Shown here in pieces: positions 4,208-14,691 of a stretch of DNA of 53,354 bases. The DNA comes from Bacteroidia bacterium (GTDB lineage: Bacteria; Bacteroidota; Bacteroidia; Flavobacteriales_E; Vicingaceae). Location of the stretch: assembly GCA_030426475.1 (NCBI GenBank), contig JAUHYR010000008.1, positions 1-53,354 on the forward strand. The letters are read 5' to 3'. Numbering within the stretch: the stretch's first letter is position 1; the number at the start of each line of letters is the position of its first letter. A model generated the notes under the pieces. That model did not search any database, was not told the DNA's origin, and saw only the letters and a list, made by a program, of their open reading frames with translations. The position numbers were made by a program, and so were the translations under genes.

Positions 4208-5296
4208 ATGGGTAAAAAGGCATTAATAACAGGAATTACCGGTCAGGACGGTGCTTACCTAGCTGAATTTTTATTGGCTAAAGGCTATGAGGTACATGGC
4301 ATTAAAAGAAGAAGTTCTTTATTCAACACAGATAGAATAGACCATTTGTATAAAGATCAACATGAAGAAGGAGTAAAACTTTTTCTTCATTATGGAGATT
4401 TAACAGACTCAACTAACCTTATTAGAATTATTCAAGAAGTTCAGCCCGATGAAATCTATAATTTGGCGGCTCAATCTCATGTAAAAGTATCTTTTGAAAC
4501 TCCTGAATATACAGCTAATTCAGACGCTTTAGGAGCGCTTAGAATATTAGAAGCAATCCGGATTTTAAATCTTGAAAAAAAGACCAGATTTTACCAAGCC
4601 TCTACTTCCGAACTTTATGGTTTAGTGCAAGAAACACCTCAAAAAGAAACTACTCCGTTTTACCCAAGAAGCCCTTATGCTGTAGCCAAACTATATGCTT
4701 ATTGGATTGTGAAAAATTATAGAGAAGCTTACGGAATTTATGCCTGTAATGGTATTTTGTTTAATCATGAAAGTCCAATAAGAGGAGAAACTTTTGTTAC
4801 CAGAAAAATTACTCGTGCGGCTGCCAAAATAAAACTTGGATTACAAAAAAAGTTGTTCATGGGTAATATTGATGCAAAGCGAGATTGGGGACATGCAAAA
4901 GATTATATTGAAGGAATGTATTTAATGCTTCAGCAAGAAAAAGCAGAAGATTATGTCTTAGCAACAGGCGAAACAACTTCTGTAAGAGATTTTATTTCAA
5001 TGACTTTTAAAGAATTAGATATTGAGATTGAATGGCAAGGCAGCGGAGTTGATGAAAAAGGAATAAATAAAGCTACCAGAGAAGTAATTGTCGAAATAGA
5101 TAAAAAATATTTTAGGCCAACAGAAGTTGATTTATTGGTGGGAGATGCTTCAAAAGCAAAAAAAGAACTTGGTTGGGAACCAAAGCATAATCTGGCATCG
5201 CTTATAAAAGATATGGTTCAAAGCGATTTAAAACTTTTCGAAAGAGATAAATACTTGTTAGAAGGCGGACATAAAGTGCTTCGTTATGATGAATAA
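4208..5296 (+). CDS. gmd: GDP-mannose 4,6-dehydratase
   Basis: Converts GDP-D-mannose to GDP-4-keto-6-deoxymannose, the first step of GDP-L-fucose synthesis. It is a 362-residue short-chain dehydrogenase. The N-terminal NADP-binding [12 protein letters not shown] follows the TGxxGxxG pattern, NLAAQSHV is present, the catalytic YAVAK follows the STSELYG segment, and the C-terminal [11 protein letters not shown] is typical of Gmd. The ATG at 4208 gives the usual N-terminus [12 protein letters not shown]. The gene overlaps fcl by 11 bp, so both pathway enzymes should be made together. Confidence 0.97.
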
Positions 5297-6236
5297 AGAA
5301 GATAAAATTTATGTTGCCGGACATAACGGTATGGTTGGTTCAGCAATCGTGAGAAAACTTAAAGCCGAAGGTTTTACCAATATTGTTGTCGCTTCCAGCA
5401 AAGAGCTTGATTTACGAAATCAAAATCAGGTGAATGAGTTTTTTGAAATCCAGCAACCTAAATTTGTTTTTATAGCTGCGGCAAAAGTTGGCGGTATTCA
5501 AGCTAACAATATATACAGAGCTGATTTTATTTATGACAATTTAGCGATTGAAATAAATACTATTCATGCTGCATTTAAAACTAAAGTAGAAAAGTTACTT
5601 TTTTTGGGTTCTTCTTGTATTTACCCTAAACTAGCTCCTCAACCTTTGAAAGAGGAATATTTGCTTACGGGAACTCTAGAGTCAACAAATGAGCCGTATG
5701 CTATTGCTAAAATAGCGGGAATCAAACTCTGCGAAGCTTATTATGACCAATATGGAGCTAATTTTATTTCGGCTATGCCTACCAACTTGTTTGGTCCAAA
5801 TGATAATTATGATTTAAATAATTCTCATGTATTGCCTGCCTTATTACGTAAATTTCATGTAGCAAAAGTCAACAATTTACCGAGTGTTGAAATTTGGGGA
5901 ACGGGAAGCCCCAAAAGAGAATTTTTACATGTAGATGACTTAGCTGATGCGTGTTACTTTTTAATGCAAAACTATGATGGGAAGGAGTTTGTAAATATTG
6001 GAACAGGAGAAGATATATCCATTAAAGAATTGGCTTTTCTGGTAAAAGAAATAGTCGGATTTAACGGTGAATTGAAATTTAATACCTCAAAACCTGATGG
6101 AACTCCCAGAAAGTTAATGGATGTTTCAAAATTAAATAGGTTAGGGTGGAAGCATACAATTTCTCTGGAGGAAGGCATCAAAAAAGTTTACGAAGAAGTA
6201 AAAGAGATGAGTTTTGAATATGAAGGCGCAAACTAG
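5286..6236 (+). CDS. fcl: GDP-L-fucose synthase
   Basis: Epimerase-reductase that turns the Gmd product into GDP-L-fucose for surface glycans. The 316-residue protein has the NADP motif [26 protein letters not shown], the catalytic YAIAKIAG, and [13 protein letters not shown], all hallmarks of Fcl/WcaG. The start overlaps the end of gmd; a second ATG three bases later (5289) is equally likely. The 3' end overlaps the next gene, which encodes an outer-membrane barrel, tying fucose supply to a surface-polysaccharide block. Confidence 0.96.
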
Positions 6237-7791
6237 AAATGTATTATTTCTTTTCTCGTTTTTATTTTTTGTGCAAATTTTCTTTGCACAAAACCTTCAG
6301 TTACCATTAAACTACTTTCATAATACTACCAATTATAATTTTATTAAAAATAGCGATGCTTTAGTTCATACGTCTTCTAAACCACTAATAGAAAGACAGC
6401 TCACTCAACTTTTTAATGATAACTTAGCTTATCCTGATATTAATCAAAATTTATCTATAAATGATTATTCAAGTAAGTCCCTGTTTGCAAGAAAGGCATT
6501 TTACGAAAACTTAGTTATTATTAAAGATTCAGATTTCTATATTACCATAGACCCTTTAATGAATTTTGAATTTGGGCAGGACGGTGAAGATACTTCGTCT
6601 TCGTCTATCTATACAAACACAAGAGGAATTTTAGTGAGAGGAAATATAGGAAGTAACTTTTCTTTCTCTACTTCTTTTTATGAAAGCCAGTCTTTTTTTC
6701 CGGATTATTTGTCGAGTTATGTTGCTTCATCAAAAGTGGTTCCGGGACAAGGGCGAACAAAACCTTTTAAAAAAACAGGATATGATTACGCTATGGCACA
6801 AGGCTACTTATCATATTCTCCTAAAGATTATGTGAATATTATAGCCGGACATGGAAAGAATTTTATTGGTGATGGCTATCGTTCGTTGTTTTTATCTGAT
6901 GCGGGTTTTAATTATCCTCACTTAAAATCTACATGGTGGTTTTTCAAAAATAAACTTCAGTACACCACCATTTTTGCCCAACTAAACAACTTAAACAGAC
7001 TTCCTACATTTTCAAGAGTCGAACCACTTTTTGAAAGAAAAGGAGCTAGCTTTTTTTATTTGAATTATCATATAAATAATTTCATTTCCGTTGGATTGTT
7101 TGAAGGAACAATTTGGCAAACTATGGATACTTCGGGCACATTGGGATTAAATCCTCTTCAACTAAACCCAATTATCGGAGTAAACACATTGGCTAATGGT
7201 TTTAGTTCTGAAAATAATACCGTTTCAGGACTTAATTTAAAAGTTAAAACACCTTTTCATCTTACATTCTATTCTCAATTGATGTTAGATGAGCCAACTA
7301 AAACTCAAGGCATAGTGAGAGGAGGTTGCCAATTGGGATTAAAATATACCTCAGTTAAAAATTTATTATTGCAATTGGAATGGAATGACGTAGCTCCGTT
7401 TTCTTATACTAATGAATTACCACTTCAAAGTTTTACACATTATAATCAGCCATTGGCCCATCCTCAAGGTGCCGGATTTTCAGAAATTGTTTTTTTAACA
7501 GGATATCGATTTAAAAGACTTTTTGCAAACGCTAAAATTAACTACTATGAATATACCGGGTTCGGACATAATGTGTTTTTACCGTCATTTACAGTTCCCA
7601 CACAAAGCAAAGAAGTAGAATTAATGATAGCAGATTTGAGTTTAGGTTTTATGATTAATCCAAAAACAAATTTGAATGTAAGTTTGGGTGTAAATTATAG
7701 AAACCAGGATATGCAAGTTGAAACCTTTAAAACGAATTACGTATATTTTGCTTTGAGAACTTCATTGTCTAACCTTTATTACGACTTTTAA
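6220..7791 (+). CDS. Wzi/RemB-like outer-membrane beta-barrel protein, copy 1
   Basis: A 523-residue exported protein with a signal peptide (hydrophobic [18 protein letters not shown]) and a body of alternating aromatic strands, as in an outer-membrane barrel. The segment [13 protein letters not shown] (about residues 210-222) and [12 protein letters not shown] near 410 recur in the second copy at 8831. The pattern fits the capsule-assembly Wzi family, to which I believe the gliding protein RemB also belongs; I cannot choose between these from sequence. The ATG at 6220 overlaps fcl by 17 bp; a TTG two codons earlier is possible. The gene abuts the WecA-like gene, so a role in attaching or exporting surface glycan is likely. 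Confidence 0.75.
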
Positions 7792-8834
7792 TGCAAGAAC
7801 TACTACTGCCTATTATAACGTCTTTTATTATTGTGATTTTAGCTACACCTTCATTCATTAAAGTGGCTATTTATAAAAGATTGTTTGACACACCTGATGG
7901 TGATAGAAAACTTCATGTTAGAAATGTTCCTTCAATGGGAGGAATAATGATTTTTGCAGGAACCTTATTTGCTTTCTCATTATGGTATCCATCTGATACA
8001 ACACGTGAATTTAATTATTTAATTCCATGCATGCTTATTTTATTTTTTGTAGGAATGAAAGATGACATTATTGGTACTACTCCCGCAAAAAAACTGCTTT
8101 CTCATTTATTGGTAGCTTTTATTATGGTATTAATGGCTAATATTAAAATTACCAGCTTACACGGTTTGTTTGGAATAAGAGAAATACCTGAATATGCCGG
8201 AATTTTCTTGTCTGTTTTTACCTATATAGTAGTTGTAAATGCATTCAACTTAATTGATGGTATTGACGGATTGGCAGCAACTGTTGGTTTAGTAGCTTCT
8301 TGTGTTTTTGGGGTATGGTTTTATTTTGCTGAGGACATGGTATTTTCTGTATTGGCATTTTCTTTAGCGGGTGCATTGTTTGCATTTTTATTTTTCAATT
8401 TTGCTCCTGCAAAAATATTTATGGGTGATTCCGGTTCTTTAACTATTGGATTTGTTGTATCTGTTTTGGCGATTGAAATGATAGAGTTTGATAAAGAGGC
8501 ACTTCCTTCAAATATCTACAACATTTCAAGACCGGTTTTATCAATGTCAGTTTTAGTTTACCCGCTTATGGATACACTTCGTATTTTTATTTATCGCTCT
8601 TTAAAAGGAGTTTCTCCCTTCTCGGCCGATAAAAATCATATCCATCATCAATTGTTACGATTAGGGATGAATCACAGGTATATTGTAGCTTGTGTGTTCA
8701 TTTACAATCTTATCATAGTAGGTTTAACCATTGCACTTCAGCATTTACAACCAAGTATTACATTCGGAATTGTGTTTGGAGTAGCGATAATATTGGCACA
8801 AGTTCCATTCTTTTTTAAAGTTAAAAAAGCTTGA
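7791..8834 (+). CDS. Glycosyl-1-phosphate transferase to undecaprenyl phosphate (WecA/TagO/MraY-like, GT4)
   Basis: Polytopic inner-membrane enzyme that starts glycan assembly by moving a sugar-1-phosphate from a UDP-sugar to the lipid carrier. Its 347 residues show about ten membrane helices and the family motifs in order: RKLHVRNVPSMGG near 38, VGMKDDIIG near 92, NAFNLIDGIDGLAA near 150, FMGDSGSLTIG near 210 and the KNHIHHQLLRLG His motif near 280. The His motif and lack of MurNAc-pentapeptide features favour WecA/TagO over MraY. The start overlaps the preceding stop by one base, and the stop overlaps the next start. Sugar specificity is unknown. Confidence 0.92.
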   Translation: MQELLLPIITSFIIVILATPSFIKVAIYKRLFDTPDGDRKLHVRNVPSMGGIMIFAGTLFAFSLWYPSDTTREFNYLIPCMLILFFVGMKDDIIGTTPAKKLLSHLLVAFIMVLMANIKITSLHGLFGIREIPEYAGIFLSVFTYIVVVNAFNLIDGIDGLAATVGLVASCVFGVWFYFAEDMVFSVLAFSLAGALFAFLFFNFAPAKIFMGDSGSLTIGFVVSVLAIEMIEFDKEALPSNIYNISRPVLSMSVLVYPLMDTLRIFIYRSLKGVSPFSADKNHIHHQLLRLGMNHRYIVACVFIYNLIIVGLTIALQHLQPSITFGIVFGVAIILAQVPFFFKVKKA

Positions 8835-10456
8835 AAAAAATAATTCCATATCTATTTATCTTTTTTAGTGGTGTTTTATACTCACAAAGCTTACTAACTC
8901 CATTAGATAAACAATGGTATAGTTTTATAGATGCAGAGGCCAATAATCATAAATTAAAATTAAACACCACTTGTAAGCCATTTGGAAAATATGAATTGAT
9001 TAAAAGTGTAAATGCGGATAGCATTTTTGGTGTTACTAATGTTTCAGGGAAAAGGTGGAAGGAGGTATTGTTTAATCATACCTCTCTTTTGAATAATGAT
9101 TCTGTGAGTTCAATTTATTTATCTCCTATTATTTCTACTTCTTACTTTTCTGATGGAGTTAGAGAAGATGACAGTACTTTTTCTGTAACCGGAATAACAA
9201 ATACTTTGGGACTTGATGCAGGCATAACTTATAGAAATTGGGCAAATTTGAATGTAAGTTTATTTCACGTAAATGGTCAGTTTCCGTATTATCAAGAAAG
9301 ACTTATTAAATCTCAAGGGGTAATTCCAGGAATGGGAATAGCACACCCAACTAATGGCGGGTATGAAAGCACTTTTGTAAATTCCTATTTATATTTAAGA
9401 GCAGGTAAACATTTTGACTTTACACTTGGTTACGGAAAAAACTTCTGGGGAGACGGGTATAGAACGTTTATGATTTCCGACAATGCTTTTTCGTATCCAT
9501 ACTTTAAAATTAATACCAAGTTAGGCAGAATTAATTACACTAACTTATTTACTCAGTTTACCAATTTAATTCCGAACAGTAAATCAAAAATTAAATATGC
9601 CACGTTTCATCATTTAAGTTGGAATATTGCTAAATGGTTAAATATTGGAATATATGAAGCAGTTGTGTGGCAGGCTAAAGACAGTATTTACAACAGGGGT
9701 TTTGATGTGAATTACTTAAACCCTTTTATCTTTTACAGACCCATAGAGTATTCTTTAGGCTCTTCAGATAACTCTATTTTTGGGATGAACTACAAGTTTA
9801 CTCCACATAAATACCATCACATTTATGGTCAAATTATTTTAGATGATTTTTTACTAAGTGCTATTAAAGCAGACTTAAAGCATCAAGTCTTTCCTAAAGA
9901 TTCAAGTATAAATTGGGGATGGTGGGCAACTAAATATGCGTTGCAATTCGGTTACAAAGGCTATAATTTATTTGGCTTAAAAAATCTTAATGTTTTAGCA
10001 GAATACAACATGGCAAGGCCTTATATTTTTTCGCATAGTATAACACAACAATCATTTGGTCATATCAATCAGCCTATTGCTCATCCTGTTGGCGCTAACT
10101 TTAAAGAAACCATTTTAATGATTAGCTATCGCTATAAGCGTATTGATATAGCTCTGAAATTAGTAAATGTTAGGTCTGGCTTAGATACCTCAAAAACAGC
10201 TTTCGGAAAAAATGTTTTTCAACCTTATGTTGACAGGGGAACAGGCTATTTTAATTATACCACACAAGGGCTAGAAACAAAAATGCAGGATTTTAATGCT
10301 CAAATTTCTTATATCATAAATCCTTCTGCTAATGCAAGATTATTTGCGGGAGTTACTCTAAGAAGATATGAAAACTATAAATATCGATTAGAAGACACTT
10401 ATTTTCAAGTAGGCTTAAAGGTTGGTTTCTTCAACCAATACTTTGATTATTTTTAA
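8831..10456 (+). CDS. Wzi/RemB-like outer-membrane beta-barrel protein, copy 2
   Basis: A 541-residue paralogue of the protein at 6220. It has a signal peptide (MKKIIPYLFIFFSGVLYSQ) and many aromatic strands. The shared signatures are GYGKNFWGDGYRTFMISD (from about residue 200) and INQPIAHPVGANFKETIL. The start is TTG at 8831, overlapping the stop of the WecA-like gene in TTGA; no nearby ATG would keep the signal peptide. Position and family suggest an outer-membrane partner in capsule or exopolysaccharide handling, possibly with a different ligand from copy 1. Confidence 0.73.
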   Translation: MKKIIPYLFIFFSGVLYSQSLLTPLDKQWYSFIDAEANNHKLKLNTTCKPFGKYELIKSVNADSIFGVTNVSGKRWKEVLFNHTSLLNNDSVSSIYLSPIISTSYFSDGVREDDSTFSVTGITNTLGLDAGITYRNWANLNVSLFHVNGQFPYYQERLIKSQGVIPGMGIAHPTNGGYESTFVNSYLYLRAGKHFDFTLGYGKNFWGDGYRTFMISDNAFSYPYFKINTKLGRINYTNLFTQFTNLIPNSKSKIKYATFHHLSWNIAKWLNIGIYEAVVWQAKDSIYNRGFDVNYLNPFIFYRPIEYSLGSSDNSIFGMNYKFTPHKYHHIYGQIILDDFLLSAIKADLKHQVFPKDSSINWGWWATKYALQFGYKGYNLFGLKNLNVLAEYNMARPYIFSHSITQQSFGHINQPIAHPVGANFKETILMISYRYKRIDIALKLVNVRSGLDTSKTAFGKNVFQPYVDRGTGYFNYTTQGLETKMQDFNAQISYIINPSANARLFAGVTLRRYENYKYRLEDTYFQVGLKVGFFNQYFDYF

Positions 10457-10521: not shown

Positions 10522-11424
10522 TTGAAAGCAGTTACTAAAATCAGTTTTTTACTTCTTGTTGCCACACTTGTTTTTTCTTGTAAAAAAGAAGAAAAAGTTC
10601 AGGTTCATAAAGATTTAGTATTTGAAAATAATACTGCTCCTGACTATTCCGGTGTTACTACTTTGCAAGTAGAAAACTATGTAAATAGGTTGTATATCGA
10701 TTTAATTGGGAATGTTCCAACATCTACTGAACTATCTACTGATGTTGCTTTTTTGGAAGCAAATTCGTTAAGTCAGGCAAGCAGAGATACGGTTGTTTCT
10801 AAACTAATTGCAAAGAAGCAATTTTATGCAAAGCTTTGGCAAGATGCTTCTAATCTAATGACAAATGCAGGAAGCAAAGCCGATTTATATCAAGAGATAC
10901 TAACGTATCAATATGTAGCTTCTTTGTACTATCAAAATGGGGATACTTTTAATGCTCAATTTATAGATAATGAAGTGCAAAAATTAGTGAACTTGTATGA
11001 GGCAGACTCTCTTCTAAAATTACAGCAAATCGATCACAATGAGTTTCATAAAAGATTTTGTTTTAATTTAATTTATGATGAAATAAATATGGGAACGGAA
11101 AACTTTGTGGTTGCATCTTTTGAGAATTTACTAGGGCGTTATCCTACCGTTCAAGAGTTGGCAAGCGGTAAAAGTATGGTTGACGGAACTTCAACTATAT
11201 TATTCTTACAAAACGGAGACAGTAAAATAGATTTCTTAAATATTTTAACGGCATCAAGAGAATATTATGAATCTAGAGTGGAAGATGCTTACAGCCTTTT
11301 GTTACAAAGAAAACCTACTTCAGTTGAAATGGGTAATGAAACCAATGCTTTTGTTTTAGATGATAAATGGCAAAATGTGTATAAAAAAATATGTAAAACA
11401 GATGAGTATGCAGCCTTTTTATAG
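10522..11424 (+). CDS. DUF1549/DUF4214-like lipoprotein, function unknown
   Basis: A 300-residue predicted lipoprotein: TTG start, signal MKAVTKISFLLLVATLVFSC with the lipobox cysteine at residue 20, then Lys/Glu. The segment VNRLYIDLIGNVPTSTELS, followed by a SRDTVVSKLIAKKQFYAKLW helix, matches the DUF1549 pattern (x-Y-x-D-L-x-G-x-x-P-T-x-x-E). Two more degenerate units follow: ASFENLLGRYPTVQEL near 195 and YSLLLQRKPTSVEM near 258, ending in an EYAAF-type helix as in DUF4214. It is the first of five tightly packed export genes; the next gene overlaps its end. No catalytic residues can be assigned. Confidence 0.6.
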   Translation: MKAVTKISFLLLVATLVFSCKKEEKVQVHKDLVFENNTAPDYSGVTTLQVENYVNRLYIDLIGNVPTSTELSTDVAFLEANSLSQASRDTVVSKLIAKKQFYAKLWQDASNLMTNAGSKADLYQEILTYQYVASLYYQNGDTFNAQFIDNEVQKLVNLYEADSLLKLQQIDHNEFHKRFCFNLIYDEINMGTENFVVASFENLLGRYPTVQELASGKSMVDGTSTILFLQNGDSKIDFLNILTASREYYESRVEDAYSLLLQRKPTSVEMGNETNAFVLDDKWQNVYKKICKTDEYAAFL

Positions 11425-11920
11425 AGTTACTTATATGGTTTTATTTTCCTTGATTTTCATTTCTTGTAAAAAGAAAGTAATTGAGGAAACTGTTTACGAT
11501 AATATCATTTATGAAGTAAATGATGTGGCTGTTTATGGTTCAAATGTGGAAAAGACCAAACAAAAATCTACTAACCAATATATATCTATTTTATATACTG
11601 ATTTATTCAATCAGGCGATTAGTAATAATGAGTTAGCAGAAATTTCTGAGTTAACTTTAGCAATGGGAGATAAACAAACCTCTAACGAGCTAATTATTTC
11701 TCATTATTTGAATTCTCCTTTAGTCAATATTCCTACCAATTCTCAAATGCGAACAGATGTGGCGACTTTTATCAATGAAACTTATGTTAAATTTTATCAG
11801 CGTTACCCTACCGAATACGAAAAAATCTATTTGAAAAAAATGATTGAAGACGACCCTTTAATGACAGCTGAGAATATATATGTCGCCTTTGCTTTGTCTA
11901 ACGAATACTATTTTTATTAA
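11402..11920 (+). CDS. Small lipoprotein with DUF1549/DUF4214-like repeats
   Basis: About 172 residues with a lipoprotein signal (VTYMVLFSLIFISC, then KKK). I chose the ATG at 11402 because it places the signal peptide at the N-terminus; an ATG two codons later is equally good, and one at 11360 would add residues ahead of the signal. It overlaps the preceding gene by about 23 bp. Two helical units, ISILYTDLFNQAISNNELAE and YVKFYQRYPTEYEKIYLKK, repeat the pattern of the upstream lipoprotein, so it looks like a shorter, diverged relative. It ends three bases before the Tat-signal DUF1501 gene. Function unknown. Confidence 0.6.
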   Translation: MSMQPFYRVTYMVLFSLIFISCKKKVIEETVYDNIIYEVNDVAVYGSNVEKTKQKSTNQYISILYTDLFNQAISNNELAEISELTLAMGDKQTSNELIISHYLNSPLVNIPTNSQMRTDVATFINETYVKFYQRYPTEYEKIYLKKMIEDDPLMTAENIYVAFALSNEYYFY

Positions 11921-11923
11921 GCC

Positions 11924-13255
11924 ATGGATAGACGTAAATTTTTAAAAGCATCAGCAATTGCCGCAGGAGGAGCATTGGCAGCACCTTACATACTTCCTTC
12001 AGGAAGATTGTTTGCCGCTTCGGGAGCTAGAATAGTTGACCATGTTGTTTTTGTATTATTTGGTGGTGGTATTAGAAATCAAGAATCCGTTAAGCAACAA
12101 TACTTAGCTAATCAAGGTTTACCAACTCAAGGTAATGTGATGGAAAATATGCTTACCGGAGCAAAGCCAAGTCAGAATTTAGTTTATACCCAATGGAACC
12201 CTATACTTTCTAATTCTTTAGCATCTCAAGGAACTTTATTTCCTGAAATGAGATACAAAACCGGCCCAACAGGGCACTATAACGGACATACCGTAGGAAT
12301 GACCGGAAACTATACAGAAACCGGATTAAACCTTAATATTAATCCTGAGTTTCCTACTGTATTTGAATATTATCGTAAGCATTATAACCCTGCTAAAAAT
12401 GCAATTAATGCTTGGTGGATTTCTGAAGGCCTGGGACCTTACCCTTCATTAAATTATAGTCGTCACCCTAGTTATGGTTCGCAGTATGGAGCAAACTATT
12501 TGCGTCCCGCAACTGTATTTGCTAGTCAATTAGGAAATAAGTATTACGGAGATGCTTCTTCCTTTCAACCTGACGATGTAAATAGGCTTGAAAAAGTGAA
12601 AAACTTTTTAGATAAAAACTTTGATAAAAGTATTTCAGATATTCCGGGTGTAAATAATGTCAGAGCCGATATGGAAGCTATAAAAGATTTATATATCGAT
12701 ATCTTAAATGGCGTTATTCCAATTGATTGGCCACTACCAAATGGTGTTAGTCAAAGTGAGTTAACAGGTGACCTAATCAATTTTGCAGCGGCATGGCAGG
12801 TATTAAATAGATTTAAACCGGAGTTAACTGTTATTAACTCATTTAACTTGGACATTTGTCATTCAGACTTTACGGGCTATATAAAAAACCTGCATAAAGC
12901 AGACTATGGAGTAGGCTGGTTGTGGAATAAAATTCAGTCAGACCCTGTAATGGCTAACAATACAATAATGATTTGTATGCCTGAGCATGGTAGAAATTTG
13001 ATGCCAAATAATCTTTATGATAATAATGGTTTAAGGGCTTTTGATCATACAAGCGATAATAATTCAAGAGAGGTATTTAGTTTAATTGTTGGACCTTCTT
13101 CAAAAGTAAAACAAGGTCAGGTGGTAGGAACATCTACTACTCCTGTTGGTGAGAGTATAGATATTGTGCCGACTATTGCACATATTTTAGGCTTTCATAA
13201 TGACATTCCTGCAGGGTTACTACCCGGAAAAGTTTTAAATCAAGCATTTGTATAA
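11924..13255 (+). CDS. DUF1501 family protein with twin-arginine signal
   Basis: A 443-residue protein of the DUF1501 group, distantly related to alkaline phosphatase and sulfatase folds. The N-terminus MDRRKFLKASAIAAGGALAA is a clear Tat signal, so it should cross the inner membrane folded, possibly with a cofactor or metal. Later segments include the PEHGRNLMP block, FDHTSDNNSRE and a conserved VGESIDIVPTIAHILG end, as in DUF1501 proteins. Its neighbours are two DUF1549-like lipoproteins upstream and a cytochrome-like lipoprotein downstream, with a one-base overlap to the latter. Family members have no settled function, so I assign none. Confidence 0.82.
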   Translation: MDRRKFLKASAIAAGGALAAPYILPSGRLFAASGARIVDHVVFVLFGGGIRNQESVKQQYLANQGLPTQGNVMENMLTGAKPSQNLVYTQWNPILSNSLASQGTLFPEMRYKTGPTGHYNGHTVGMTGNYTETGLNLNINPEFPTVFEYYRKHYNPAKNAINAWWISEGLGPYPSLNYSRHPSYGSQYGANYLRPATVFASQLGNKYYGDASSFQPDDVNRLEKVKNFLDKNFDKSISDIPGVNNVRADMEAIKDLYIDILNGVIPIDWPLPNGVSQSELTGDLINFAAAWQVLNRFKPELTVINSFNLDICHSDFTGYIKNLHKADYGVGWLWNKIQSDPVMANNTIMICMPEHGRNLMPNNLYDNNGLRAFDHTSDNNSREVFSLIVGPSSKVKQGQVVGTSTTPVGESIDIVPTIAHILGFHNDIPAGLLPGKVLNQAFV

Positions 13256-14232
13256 TGAATAGAAAACAGATTCTATACTTTTTGTTTTTAGCTTCACTCA
13301 CAATAGTGGTCACCTATTCATGTAAAAGAGAAGCAGAATACATTGTTCCTGATAGTCCGGAAAATCCTTTTTCTAATACAAGTGGTGGTGGAGTGAATGA
13401 AAATGTAGATCCAAATAGTTTTGTTGGAATTCATAGTTTAATTTTTAGTAAGCGATGTGCTTTGCCTGCTTGTCATGACGGCTCTTTTGAGCCGGATTTT
13501 AGAACGGTTGAAAGTGCTTATAGTACTTTGGTATATCATCCTGTATTAAAAAATAATGCTACTAATTCTTTTACGTATAGAGTTTTACCGGGAGACACAG
13601 GGCTTTCATGGTTACATGAACGAATAACAACAAATGACTCTGTGCTTGGTAGAATGCCTTTATATGATGTGGCGCTCACTGCTGCAGAATTAAAAACAGT
13701 TGAAACCTGGATTTTGTCTGGTGCTCCTGATATATTTGGTGTTTCAGCTACCGTACCAAACTATAATCCCGCATTTTTTGGGGTAGTTGCCTATATGAAC
13801 GATACAACAGGCTATAGAGTAGATACAATAAGAGATAACATAGTTGCACCAATGAAATTACCCGCAGATACCATTATTGATATATGGGTAGGAATTTATG
13901 ATACTGATGCTCAGGGAGGTTTTATACCGGGTTATGGGTTGACTTATAATAAATATAAAATTTCTTCTAACCCATATAATTTTGGACCTGAGCCGGAGCA
14001 GCCATTAATTGTAGAAGGTCCGGCAACACCTTTTATAGGGCCGAATCCATTTGGAACAGGCTTAGCCCCTTTCTATCACCACTTTAAAATTAATACGGGC
14101 AACTTTGTAAAAAACAGAGCATATTATTATAGGGTTTATGTAAAAGATGCAAATCATCCATTGCCTATAGAACTTCCGGAAAACGGTTCTCAATCTTATT
14201 TATTAACTTATTTTTCTTTTATAGTACAATAG
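13255..14232 (+). CDS. Cytochrome-c-like lipoprotein (PSCyt-type domain, candidate CX4CH haem site)
   Basis: A 325-residue predicted lipoprotein with its signal ending TIVVTYSC (Cys23). The next domain follows the pattern of membrane-anchored cytochrome-like domains: SLIFSKRCALPACHDG (Cys68, Cys73, His74), VLPGDTGLSWLHERI and GRMPLYDVALTAAELKTVET, where Met134 could be the sixth haem ligand. The spacing between the cysteines is four residues, not the usual two, so covalent haem attachment is plausible but unproven. The C-terminal half is beta-rich and unassigned. The start overlaps the DUF1501 stop by one base. It may feed electrons to, or sense, the DUF1501 partner; that is inference. Confidence 0.65.
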   Translation: MNRKQILYFLFLASLTIVVTYSCKREAEYIVPDSPENPFSNTSGGGVNENVDPNSFVGIHSLIFSKRCALPACHDGSFEPDFRTVESAYSTLVYHPVLKNNATNSFTYRVLPGDTGLSWLHERITTNDSVLGRMPLYDVALTAAELKTVETWILSGAPDIFGVSATVPNYNPAFFGVVAYMNDTTGYRVDTIRDNIVAPMKLPADTIIDIWVGIYDTDAQGGFIPGYGLTYNKYKISSNPYNFGPEPEQPLIVEGPATPFIGPNPFGTGLAPFYHHFKINTGNFVKNRAYYYRVYVKDANHPLPIELPENGSQSYLLTYFSFIVQ

Positions 14233-14238
14233 TTGTTG

Positions 14239-14691
14239 ATGCAGAAAGTTTTATTTATAGCCTGTTGTATTTTTATTGCAATCTCTTGTAAAAAGGATAA
14301 GGCTGCTAAGTATGATCCGATTATACCAAATGAACCCACTATAGAATTAGAAAGAGTATCTCCTCAAATTATCAAAGAGTTTGATGACATTAAGTTTATT
14401 ATTAACTATCAAGATGGAGACGGAGATTTAGGTGATTTAGACCCTGATGTAAAGTCATTACACATTACAGACAATAGATTTCCGATAACACATGAGTTTC
14501 ATTTTCAGCCATTGGCTCCCGATGATATAGATGCGGTAATTAGAGGTAGTTTAGTAGTGACACTTAAAAATGTGATTTTACAAAATCAAAATGCTACCTC
14601 AGAAAAAGTTACCTTTTCCATTCAATTAAAGGACAGAGAAGGAAACTGGAGCAATACTGTTGACTCACCTGAAATTACAGTTAATAAGTAG
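14239..14691 (+). CDS. Small lipoprotein, beta-rich, function unknown
   Basis: About 150 residues. The signal MQKVLFIACCIFIAISC (lipobox Cys17) is followed by KKDK, then a beta-rich domain with INYQDGDGDLGDLDPD, an acidic loop common in Bacteroidota lipoproteins and likely to bind Ca2+. I chose the ATG at 14239, six bases after the cytochrome-like gene; two in-frame TTG codons precede it. It is the last gene of the five-gene export cluster, and a gene-free 298 bp follow. Function is not recognisable. Confidence 0.6.
   Translation: MQKVLFIACCIFIAISCKKDKAAKYDPIIPNEPTIELERVSPQIIKEFDDIKFIINYQDGDGDLGDLDPDVKSLHITDNRFPITHEFHFQPLAPDDIDAVIRGSLVVTLKNVILQNQNATSEKVTFSIQLKDREGNWSNTVDSPEITVNK

Follow-up and report, generated by a model that had tools for sequence, protein, structure and literature searches.

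What could five small genes, packed end to end on one strand and all carrying export signals, be doing together in the envelope of a Bacteroidia bacterium? The genes in question, which we call A to E, lie at positions 10522-14691 of a stretch of 53,354 nucleotides (contig JAUHYR010000008.1 of assembly GCA_030426475.1, family Vicingaceae), hereafter the window, all of them on its forward strand. A sequence-only reading of this DNA had proposed that they are a compact version of a module familiar from planctomycetes, with its parts split into separate lipoproteins around an exported core, possibly a redox or hydrolase complex. In short, we find that the five genes travel together in many species, and that the central protein, C, appears to be an alkaline-phosphatase-fold relative of the DUF1501 family with a remodelled pocket. 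As for function, we give about even chances to the proposal that the products form a lipid-anchored envelope complex, a dismantled PSCyt1-DUF1549-DUF1553 plus DUF1501 module, which would act on a surface polymer or on a secreted protein.

Results

The open reading frames (ORFs) follow one another almost without gaps, exactly where the sequence-only reading had placed them. Namely, A (10522-11424, 300 residues, TTG start) and B (11408-11920, 170 residues, start at 11402 or 11408 in an ORF that opens at 11360) overlap by about 17-23 nucleotides, 3 nucleotides separate B from C (11924-13255, 443 residues), C and D (13255-14232, 325 residues) overlap by 1 nucleotide, and E (14233-14691, 152 residues, starting with TTG at 14233 or ATG at 14239) follows D with a gap of 0. 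We searched 60 related genomes for C, which is present in several families, and scanned 84,980 species genomes, obtaining 374 relatives, 80 of which were fetched. Among the 71 loci of relatives with enough flanking DNA around C, 62 have the exact order A-B-C-D-E. What is more, patristic distances correlate between the trees of the five genes, with r of 0.74-0.88 (72 loci), as compared with at most 0.13 in shuffles. More than 60 contigs, drawn from many species, preserve the order, so the set is a genuine conserved unit and not a product of chance, and the five genes are inherited as one, tightly conserved. Three of the exceptions to the order (L090, L102, L105) are intact units broken up by ORF calling, and in two more (L086, L089) a class V aminotransferase-type gene interrupts the unit between C and D. 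Full-length C occurs in approximately 87 of the 396 Bacteroidia genomes sampled, or roughly one fifth (rows with an E-value below 1e-100). In the window's own family, it was found in only 2 of 37 genomes, the window's genome counted, so the unit is patchy. We did not find this five-gene order described in the literature.

Some individual loci deserve mention. An aminotransferase-like gene between C and D is also seen in L091, where the contig is cut; these are three Saprospiraceae contigs, and Pfam was run on L086 only. In a small clade (L063, L066, L059, L076) C is followed by no match to D or E, with L063 and L066 having A-B-C only, which hints that A-B-C is able to stand alone. In the window's genome, a lone E-like match in two pieces lies apart from the operons (G000:C121:9281-9739). 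Finally, the titles of three metagenome-assembled genomes (L052, L106, L119; Saccharospirillaceae, Chryseobacterium gleum) seem at odds with the operon that they carry, and binning or naming errors are possible.

What kind of protein is C? Its AlphaFold2 model (predicted local distance difference test, pLDDT, 89) has the fold of the sulfatases and alkaline phosphatases, with Foldseek E-values down to 2.4e-9 at a probability of 1.00 and 446 matches at E<=0.001. The sequence-only reading had called C a DUF1501 protein outright, and this stands as distant homology and falls as membership. On the one side, profile-profile comparison of C with DUF1501 (PF07394) gives a probability of 96.5 over 379 columns, with the homology extending over the full length and including the common signature residues GG, H, D..H, E.GR and DH. 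On the other side, window C has no Pfam match and a search of the genome with the DUF1501 model was likewise empty, so that membership by cut-off fails; among 79 C relatives, only 5 match DUF1501 at E<0.1 (best 2.6e-4). In a tree with 15 DUF1501 proteins, the window group lies outside the DUF1501 clades, apart from the classic group and also from the DUF1800-partnered one, on a long stem with a weak support of 0.64. The profile match of C to the compact phosphodiesterase-like lipoproteins of Bacteroidota (probability 99.6) is stronger than that to DUF1501.

These compact lipoproteins clear the Pfam cut-offs, and we aligned the pocket of C with theirs. Their first metal-ligand Asp (V-I-D-G-x-R-x-x-E) is replaced in C by Gly48 (12065-12067; F-x-G-G-x-R-x-x-E), and where they have T-N-P-G-H, C has H-Y-N-G-H, with His118 (12275-12277) at the position of the Thr/Ser, which we take to be the nucleophile of the relatives from the T-x-P-x-H pattern of nucleotide pyrophosphatases. 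Both replacements are present in 79/79 C sequences; in other words, as the alignment has it, the nucleophile and the first ligand are replaced in C, which has neither a Ser, Thr or Cys nucleophile nor the beta1 Asp. Thr116 was considered as a nucleophile and dropped, as counting back from the common G-H..G end places the Thr/Ser of the relatives opposite His118. The equivalent of His118 is invariant in 15/15 DUF1501 proteins as well. The remainder of the pocket has been kept: H118, D310, H313, E/D354, R357, D374 and H375 are essentially invariant across the C relatives. In the window, these lie in D310-x-x-H313 (12851-12862), in E354-H355-G-R357 (12983-12994), which is the counterpart of the DHGR motif and reads ECGR in a second type of operon (type II, see below) and EFGR in DUF1501, and in D374-H375 with its metal-site His (13043-13048). 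Residue 355 is His in 71 sequences, Cys in the 7 type II sequences and Ile in 1, and it is Phe in DUF1501.

Would an ordinary hydrolase not explain all this just as well? One could argue that C is a common metal-dependent phosphatase, phosphodiesterase or sulfatase and that the lipoproteins are substrate-binding helpers. The fold of C, the matches of its relatives to PF01663 (19/79) and PF00884 (17/79), and the retention of D310, H313, E354, H355 and H375 all speak for such a view. However, an ordinary hydrolase is unlikely when the Ser/Thr nucleophile has given way to an invariant His and the first ligand Asp to an invariant Gly, type II proteins lose H355 as well, and the strictly conserved haem domain of D, discussed below, is left unexplained. 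For these reasons, we consider the conventional hydrolase complex improbable. The plain hydrolase role that the sequence-only reading had entertained was in this way set aside as first choice, given that nucleophile and beta1 Asp are replaced relative to the active-looking relatives. We infer instead that C may still bind a metal and carry out chemistry other than ester hydrolysis.

Proteins A and B were said to share a degenerate repeat resembling DUF1549 and DUF4214. In the window itself, Pfam hits are weak: A matches PSCyt2/DUF1549 (PF07583) over residues 48-127 (10663-10902) with E=5.7e-5, yet at 23.6 bits against a curated cut-off of 29.8 and over some 80 of 209 positions, and has no DUF4214 or phycobilisome (PBS) linker hit, while B matches DUF4214 with E=7.7e-4, also below the curated cut-off. 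The weakness of the window's own proteins in Pfam makes the relatives necessary for an assignment, and these are considerably firmer. Namely, A relatives match DUF4214 in 59/72 cases (best 3.7e-10), the PBS linker family in 32/72 (best 3.2e-9), DUF1549 in 12/72 and DUF1553 in 17/72, and B relatives match DUF4214 in 43/63 (best 1.7e-6), so that the PBS linker/DUF4214 likeness holds for both proteins at the family level. In addition, the A profile finds solved PBS linkers in the PDB with E=3.2e-10. The AlphaFold2 model of A (pLDDT 94) is nearly all helical, and its best Foldseek matches are PBS linker domains with a probability of 1.00, but with E-values of 0.1 or worse; the linker-like helical region covers approximately residues 183-296 (11068-11409). 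The sequence-only reading had staked itself on such matches of the lipoproteins and on the five genes staying together in related genomes, and both hold.

Protein D is predicted to be a c-type cytochrome, as suggested by its single haem motif and by a CcsA-type haem assembly gene in the window's genome. In agreement with what had been noticed from the sequence, the CX4CH motif (C68-ALPA-C73-H74; 13456-13476) is followed by Met134 in an RMP motif (13654-13656), a candidate axial ligand, and C68, C73, H74 and M134 are invariant in 62/62 relatives. Compared with the N-terminal PSCyt1 part of the classic fused proteins, D reaches a probability of 97, with the haem motif, MP and WI..GA aligned. It is the profile that brings out this PSCyt1 (PF07635) signature; in Pfam, neither window C nor window D matches anything specific, and only 1/62 D relatives matches PSCyt1 (E 0.035). 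The C-terminal region after the haem domain has no assigned family. Among solved structures, D matches only that of FoxE (E=4e-4), a cytochrome of iron oxidation, and redox roles have been suggested for PSCyt genes (PMC2754498). Taken together, these two points recommend a reading in which D is the functional centre of extracellular electron transfer or metal oxidation, as a FoxE-like protein, with C supplying a metal site. That said, the FoxE match does not extend beyond some 40-50 residues in the vicinity of the Met motif, D contains a single haem motif and the operon no multihaem conduit, and metal-respiration genes are not repeatedly linked to the module, all of which leads us to regard this reading as very improbable. 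As for E, no named family was found and a PDB search was empty. Its Asp/Gly-rich loop (DGDGDLG, 14413-14433) has D61, G64 and G67 in 50/50 relatives and is possibly a Ca2+ site.

Where would the five proteins reside? The export signals, four of the lipoprotein type and one twin-arginine, proved to be as the sequence-only reading had them. A, B, D and E begin with a hydrophobic stretch up to the lipobox Cys, followed by charged residues (..LVFSC20KKEEK in A, ..IFISC20KKK in B, ..VTYSC23KREAE in D and ..IAISC19KKD in E). C begins with MDRRKFLKAS, and its twin-arginine translocation (Tat) signal region (MDRRKFLKASAIAAGGALAA, 11924-11983) scores 20.1 bits with the Tat model TIGR01409, above the cut-off of 16.7, with R3 present in all 79 relatives and R4 in 76 of the 79. 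Immediately after this predicted signal, residues 21-31 (11984-12016) read PYILPSGRLFA, a motif nearly invariant in the 79 relatives despite low AlphaFold2 confidence, which is unusual for a signal or linker stretch. TatC is present in the window's genome, and in 382/396 genomes overall, so its co-occurrence with the module does not discriminate.

More telling are the residues that follow the lipobox Cys. In Capnocytophaga, C-X-K-(D/E)2 is an established signal for surface export (PMC5080379). Window A matches it exactly (CKKEE, in a mature N-terminus CKKEEK starting at Cys20, 10579-10581), and B, D and E match only in part. Across the loci, mature operon lipoproteins start mostly with C-K-K-(D/E), and a Lys at +2/+3 together with an acidic residue between +3 and +5 is found in 202/248 of them, as compared with 6/69 other lipoprotein candidates from the same loci; as a simple pattern served to choose this comparison set, and as the sequences are related to one another, the enrichment should be taken as support rather than proof. 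Judging by these N-termini, A, B, D and E may be situated at the outer membrane and face outward.

Another clue to function comes from a paralogous operon, type II, which has ECGR in C and runs directly on into a protein of approximately 1160 residues with CUB, PKD and CHU_C domains, the last being a type IX secretion signal. Of 20 further loci, selected by C score, 19 encode a close relative of this protein, which in 16 of the 19 reads in order after the module, and several loci continue with PorP/SprF. In three loci (L236, L238, L242) the ORF caller missed C itself, and two of these further loci (L239, L240) carry EHGR, so the boundary between the types is not sharp. The window's genome has one type II operon, interrupted by an assembly gap that falls within D: contig C37 (L044, G000:C37:1-3370) ends in D, and contig C57 (L252, G000:C57:1-5620) opens in D and continues with E, the cargo and a PorP/SprF-like ORF of 341 residues, named by its position and similar appearance. 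The two contigs can be placed side by side by gene order. A separate lipoprotein of 121 residues, which combines a CX4CH haem motif with an MPP motif, is encoded some 3.3 kb after the end of the type II operon (L252:8915-9280).

Such a linkage could mean that the complex is a non-enzymatic surface scaffold that assembles or anchors secreted surface proteins, with C as a catalytically dead adaptor. The likeness of A and B to PBS linkers, the connection of type II with type IX cargo and PorP/SprF, and the further alteration of the type II pocket would all fit. Yet an adaptor would hardly be expected to keep H118, D310, H313, E/D354, R357, D374 and H375 essentially invariant, nor would a scaffold be expected to have an invariant haem motif, and the window-type copy has no adjoining cargo gene. 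On balance, we find the scaffold unlikely.

Concerning the surroundings of the window copy, neither a CUB/PKD/CHU_C cargo nor a PorP/SprF partner stands beside its five genes, and the only conserved flanking partner of window-type operons is an M20 peptidase in one clade, with other neighbours elsewhere. Upstream (4208-10456) lie apparent surface polysaccharide genes, whose products look like GDP-mannose dehydratase, GDP-fucose synthase, a pair of related Wzi-like proteins of the outer membrane and a transferase of the WecA/MraY kind; linkage of the Wzi-like and GDP-fucose genes to the module is absent in the nearest relative (L031).

Discussion

The reading that we prefer, namely a lipid-anchored envelope complex that is a dismantled form of the PSCyt/DUF1501 module, can be put together as follows. 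A, B, D and E would be anchored in the outer membrane and probably face outward, with A and B acting as linkers that keep C beside D. C would bind a metal through D310, H313, E354, H355 and H375, with His118 at the usual site of the nucleophile, and its chemistry would differ from simple hydrolysis of phosphate or sulfate esters. As a whole, the complex may process or bind a surface polymer, be it a polysaccharide or a secreted surface protein, in a haem-coupled and metal-dependent manner. For the type II paralogue, the protein whose gene comes next in the operon, the type IX-secreted one with CUB, PKD and CHU_C domains, would be the likely partner.

Several observations weigh against this picture. 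First, lacking a lipobox, C would be expected to end up in the periplasm, which is awkward if its partners face outward. Second, TatC was undetected in three genomes that carry C (G119, G188, G397), although these may be incomplete. Third, the profile comparison of A with DUF1549 is weak (probability 65, 53 columns), and the hhalign E-values behind such comparisons are pairwise, without database calibration. Finally, the six-gene linkage is limited to type II-like loci, and the window copy lacks any fixed additional partner.

One can take the argument a step further. DUF1501-type proteins in general may be enzymes of the alkaline-phosphatase fold whose active site is new, with His for Ser/Thr and Gly for the first Asp, and they may act jointly with a c-type haem protein as members of a surface complex. 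In Bacteroidota this complex would consist of five separate parts, and type II would modify or anchor a type IX-secreted surface protein. Stated in this generality, the idea is a speculative one, and we would not expect it to hold in full. Even so, the stakes are considerable. PSCyt and DUF1501 proteins are found in dozens of copies in planctomycetes, with no function assigned. The split module separates the haem, linker and alkaline-phosphatase-fold parts, and five small proteins, present in about a fifth of sampled Bacteroidia, are far simpler to express, delete and reconstitute than a fusion of 1000 residues. The altered pocket of C supplies point mutations that can be tested, and the link of type II to a type IX-secreted protein provides a concrete candidate partner. 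The pocket change common to C and DUF1501, the Lys-plus-acid N-termini of the lipoproteins and the type II operon with its cargo go beyond what the sequence-only reading contained.

Comparison with known systems

How does the unit compare with systems already described? The compact phosphodiesterase/sulfatase-like lipoproteins (L012-L021, L046-L050; 310-380 residues) are the nearest relatives of C by profile, but they keep the usual Asp and the Thr/Ser nucleophile, and none of the five loci read widely has A, B, D or E neighbours. The likeness to the phycobilisome linker domain (PF00427) and DUF4214 consists of a sequence and fold match in A and a DUF4214 match in B, whereas no phycobiliproteins are present here and A and B of Bacteroidota are predicted to be exported lipoproteins. 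The type II operon, with its CHU_C cargo and often PorP/SprF, resembles the SprB/SprF-type arrangement of type IX cargo and partner; the window copy differs in having no cargo genes, and we know of no gliding locus that contains the five-gene module.

The DUF1501-DUF1800 pair (PMC5122149; L211, L214-L216) likewise has a Tat-type DUF1501 protein beside a partner, with the H118, D/H and EFGR positions in common. It differs in that the partner is DUF1800, which A resembles weakly, and in having no haem lipoprotein. These pairs accompany chitin synthase genes, an association that is not a functional test (PMC5122149). The classic system is that of fused PSCyt1-PSCyt2(DUF1549)-PSD1(DUF1553) proteins with DUF1501 in bacteria of the Planctomycetes-Verrucomicrobia-Chlamydiae (PVC) group. 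In R. baltica, the DUF1549 and DUF1553 domains each occur 41 times (PMC2754498), and He et al. tied PSCyt genes to carbohydrate use by gene context, not by a functional test (PMC5615132). A pair of this kind is also present in other Bacteroidota (L201-L210), where a fused protein of 740-1160 residues with two CxxCH motifs adjoins a DUF1501 gene. The window unit has in common with it the haem domain, the DUF1549 region and the Tat-type DUF1501 partner alongside. Unlike the fused pair, it has no PSCyt1-PSCyt2-PSD1 fusion beside DUF1501, the corresponding parts being spread over separate ORFs, as the sequence-only reading had suspected: D resembles PSCyt1, A (with B) resembles DUF1549/DUF1553 and DUF4214, and C resembles DUF1501. 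It also has a single CX4CH motif, the order A-B-C-D-E, an additional protein, E, and a C protein that lies outside the DUF1501 clades. With no membership by Pfam cut-off, the unit is, as far as its sequences tell, a variant of the PSCyt/DUF1501 kind, taken apart into five separate genes.

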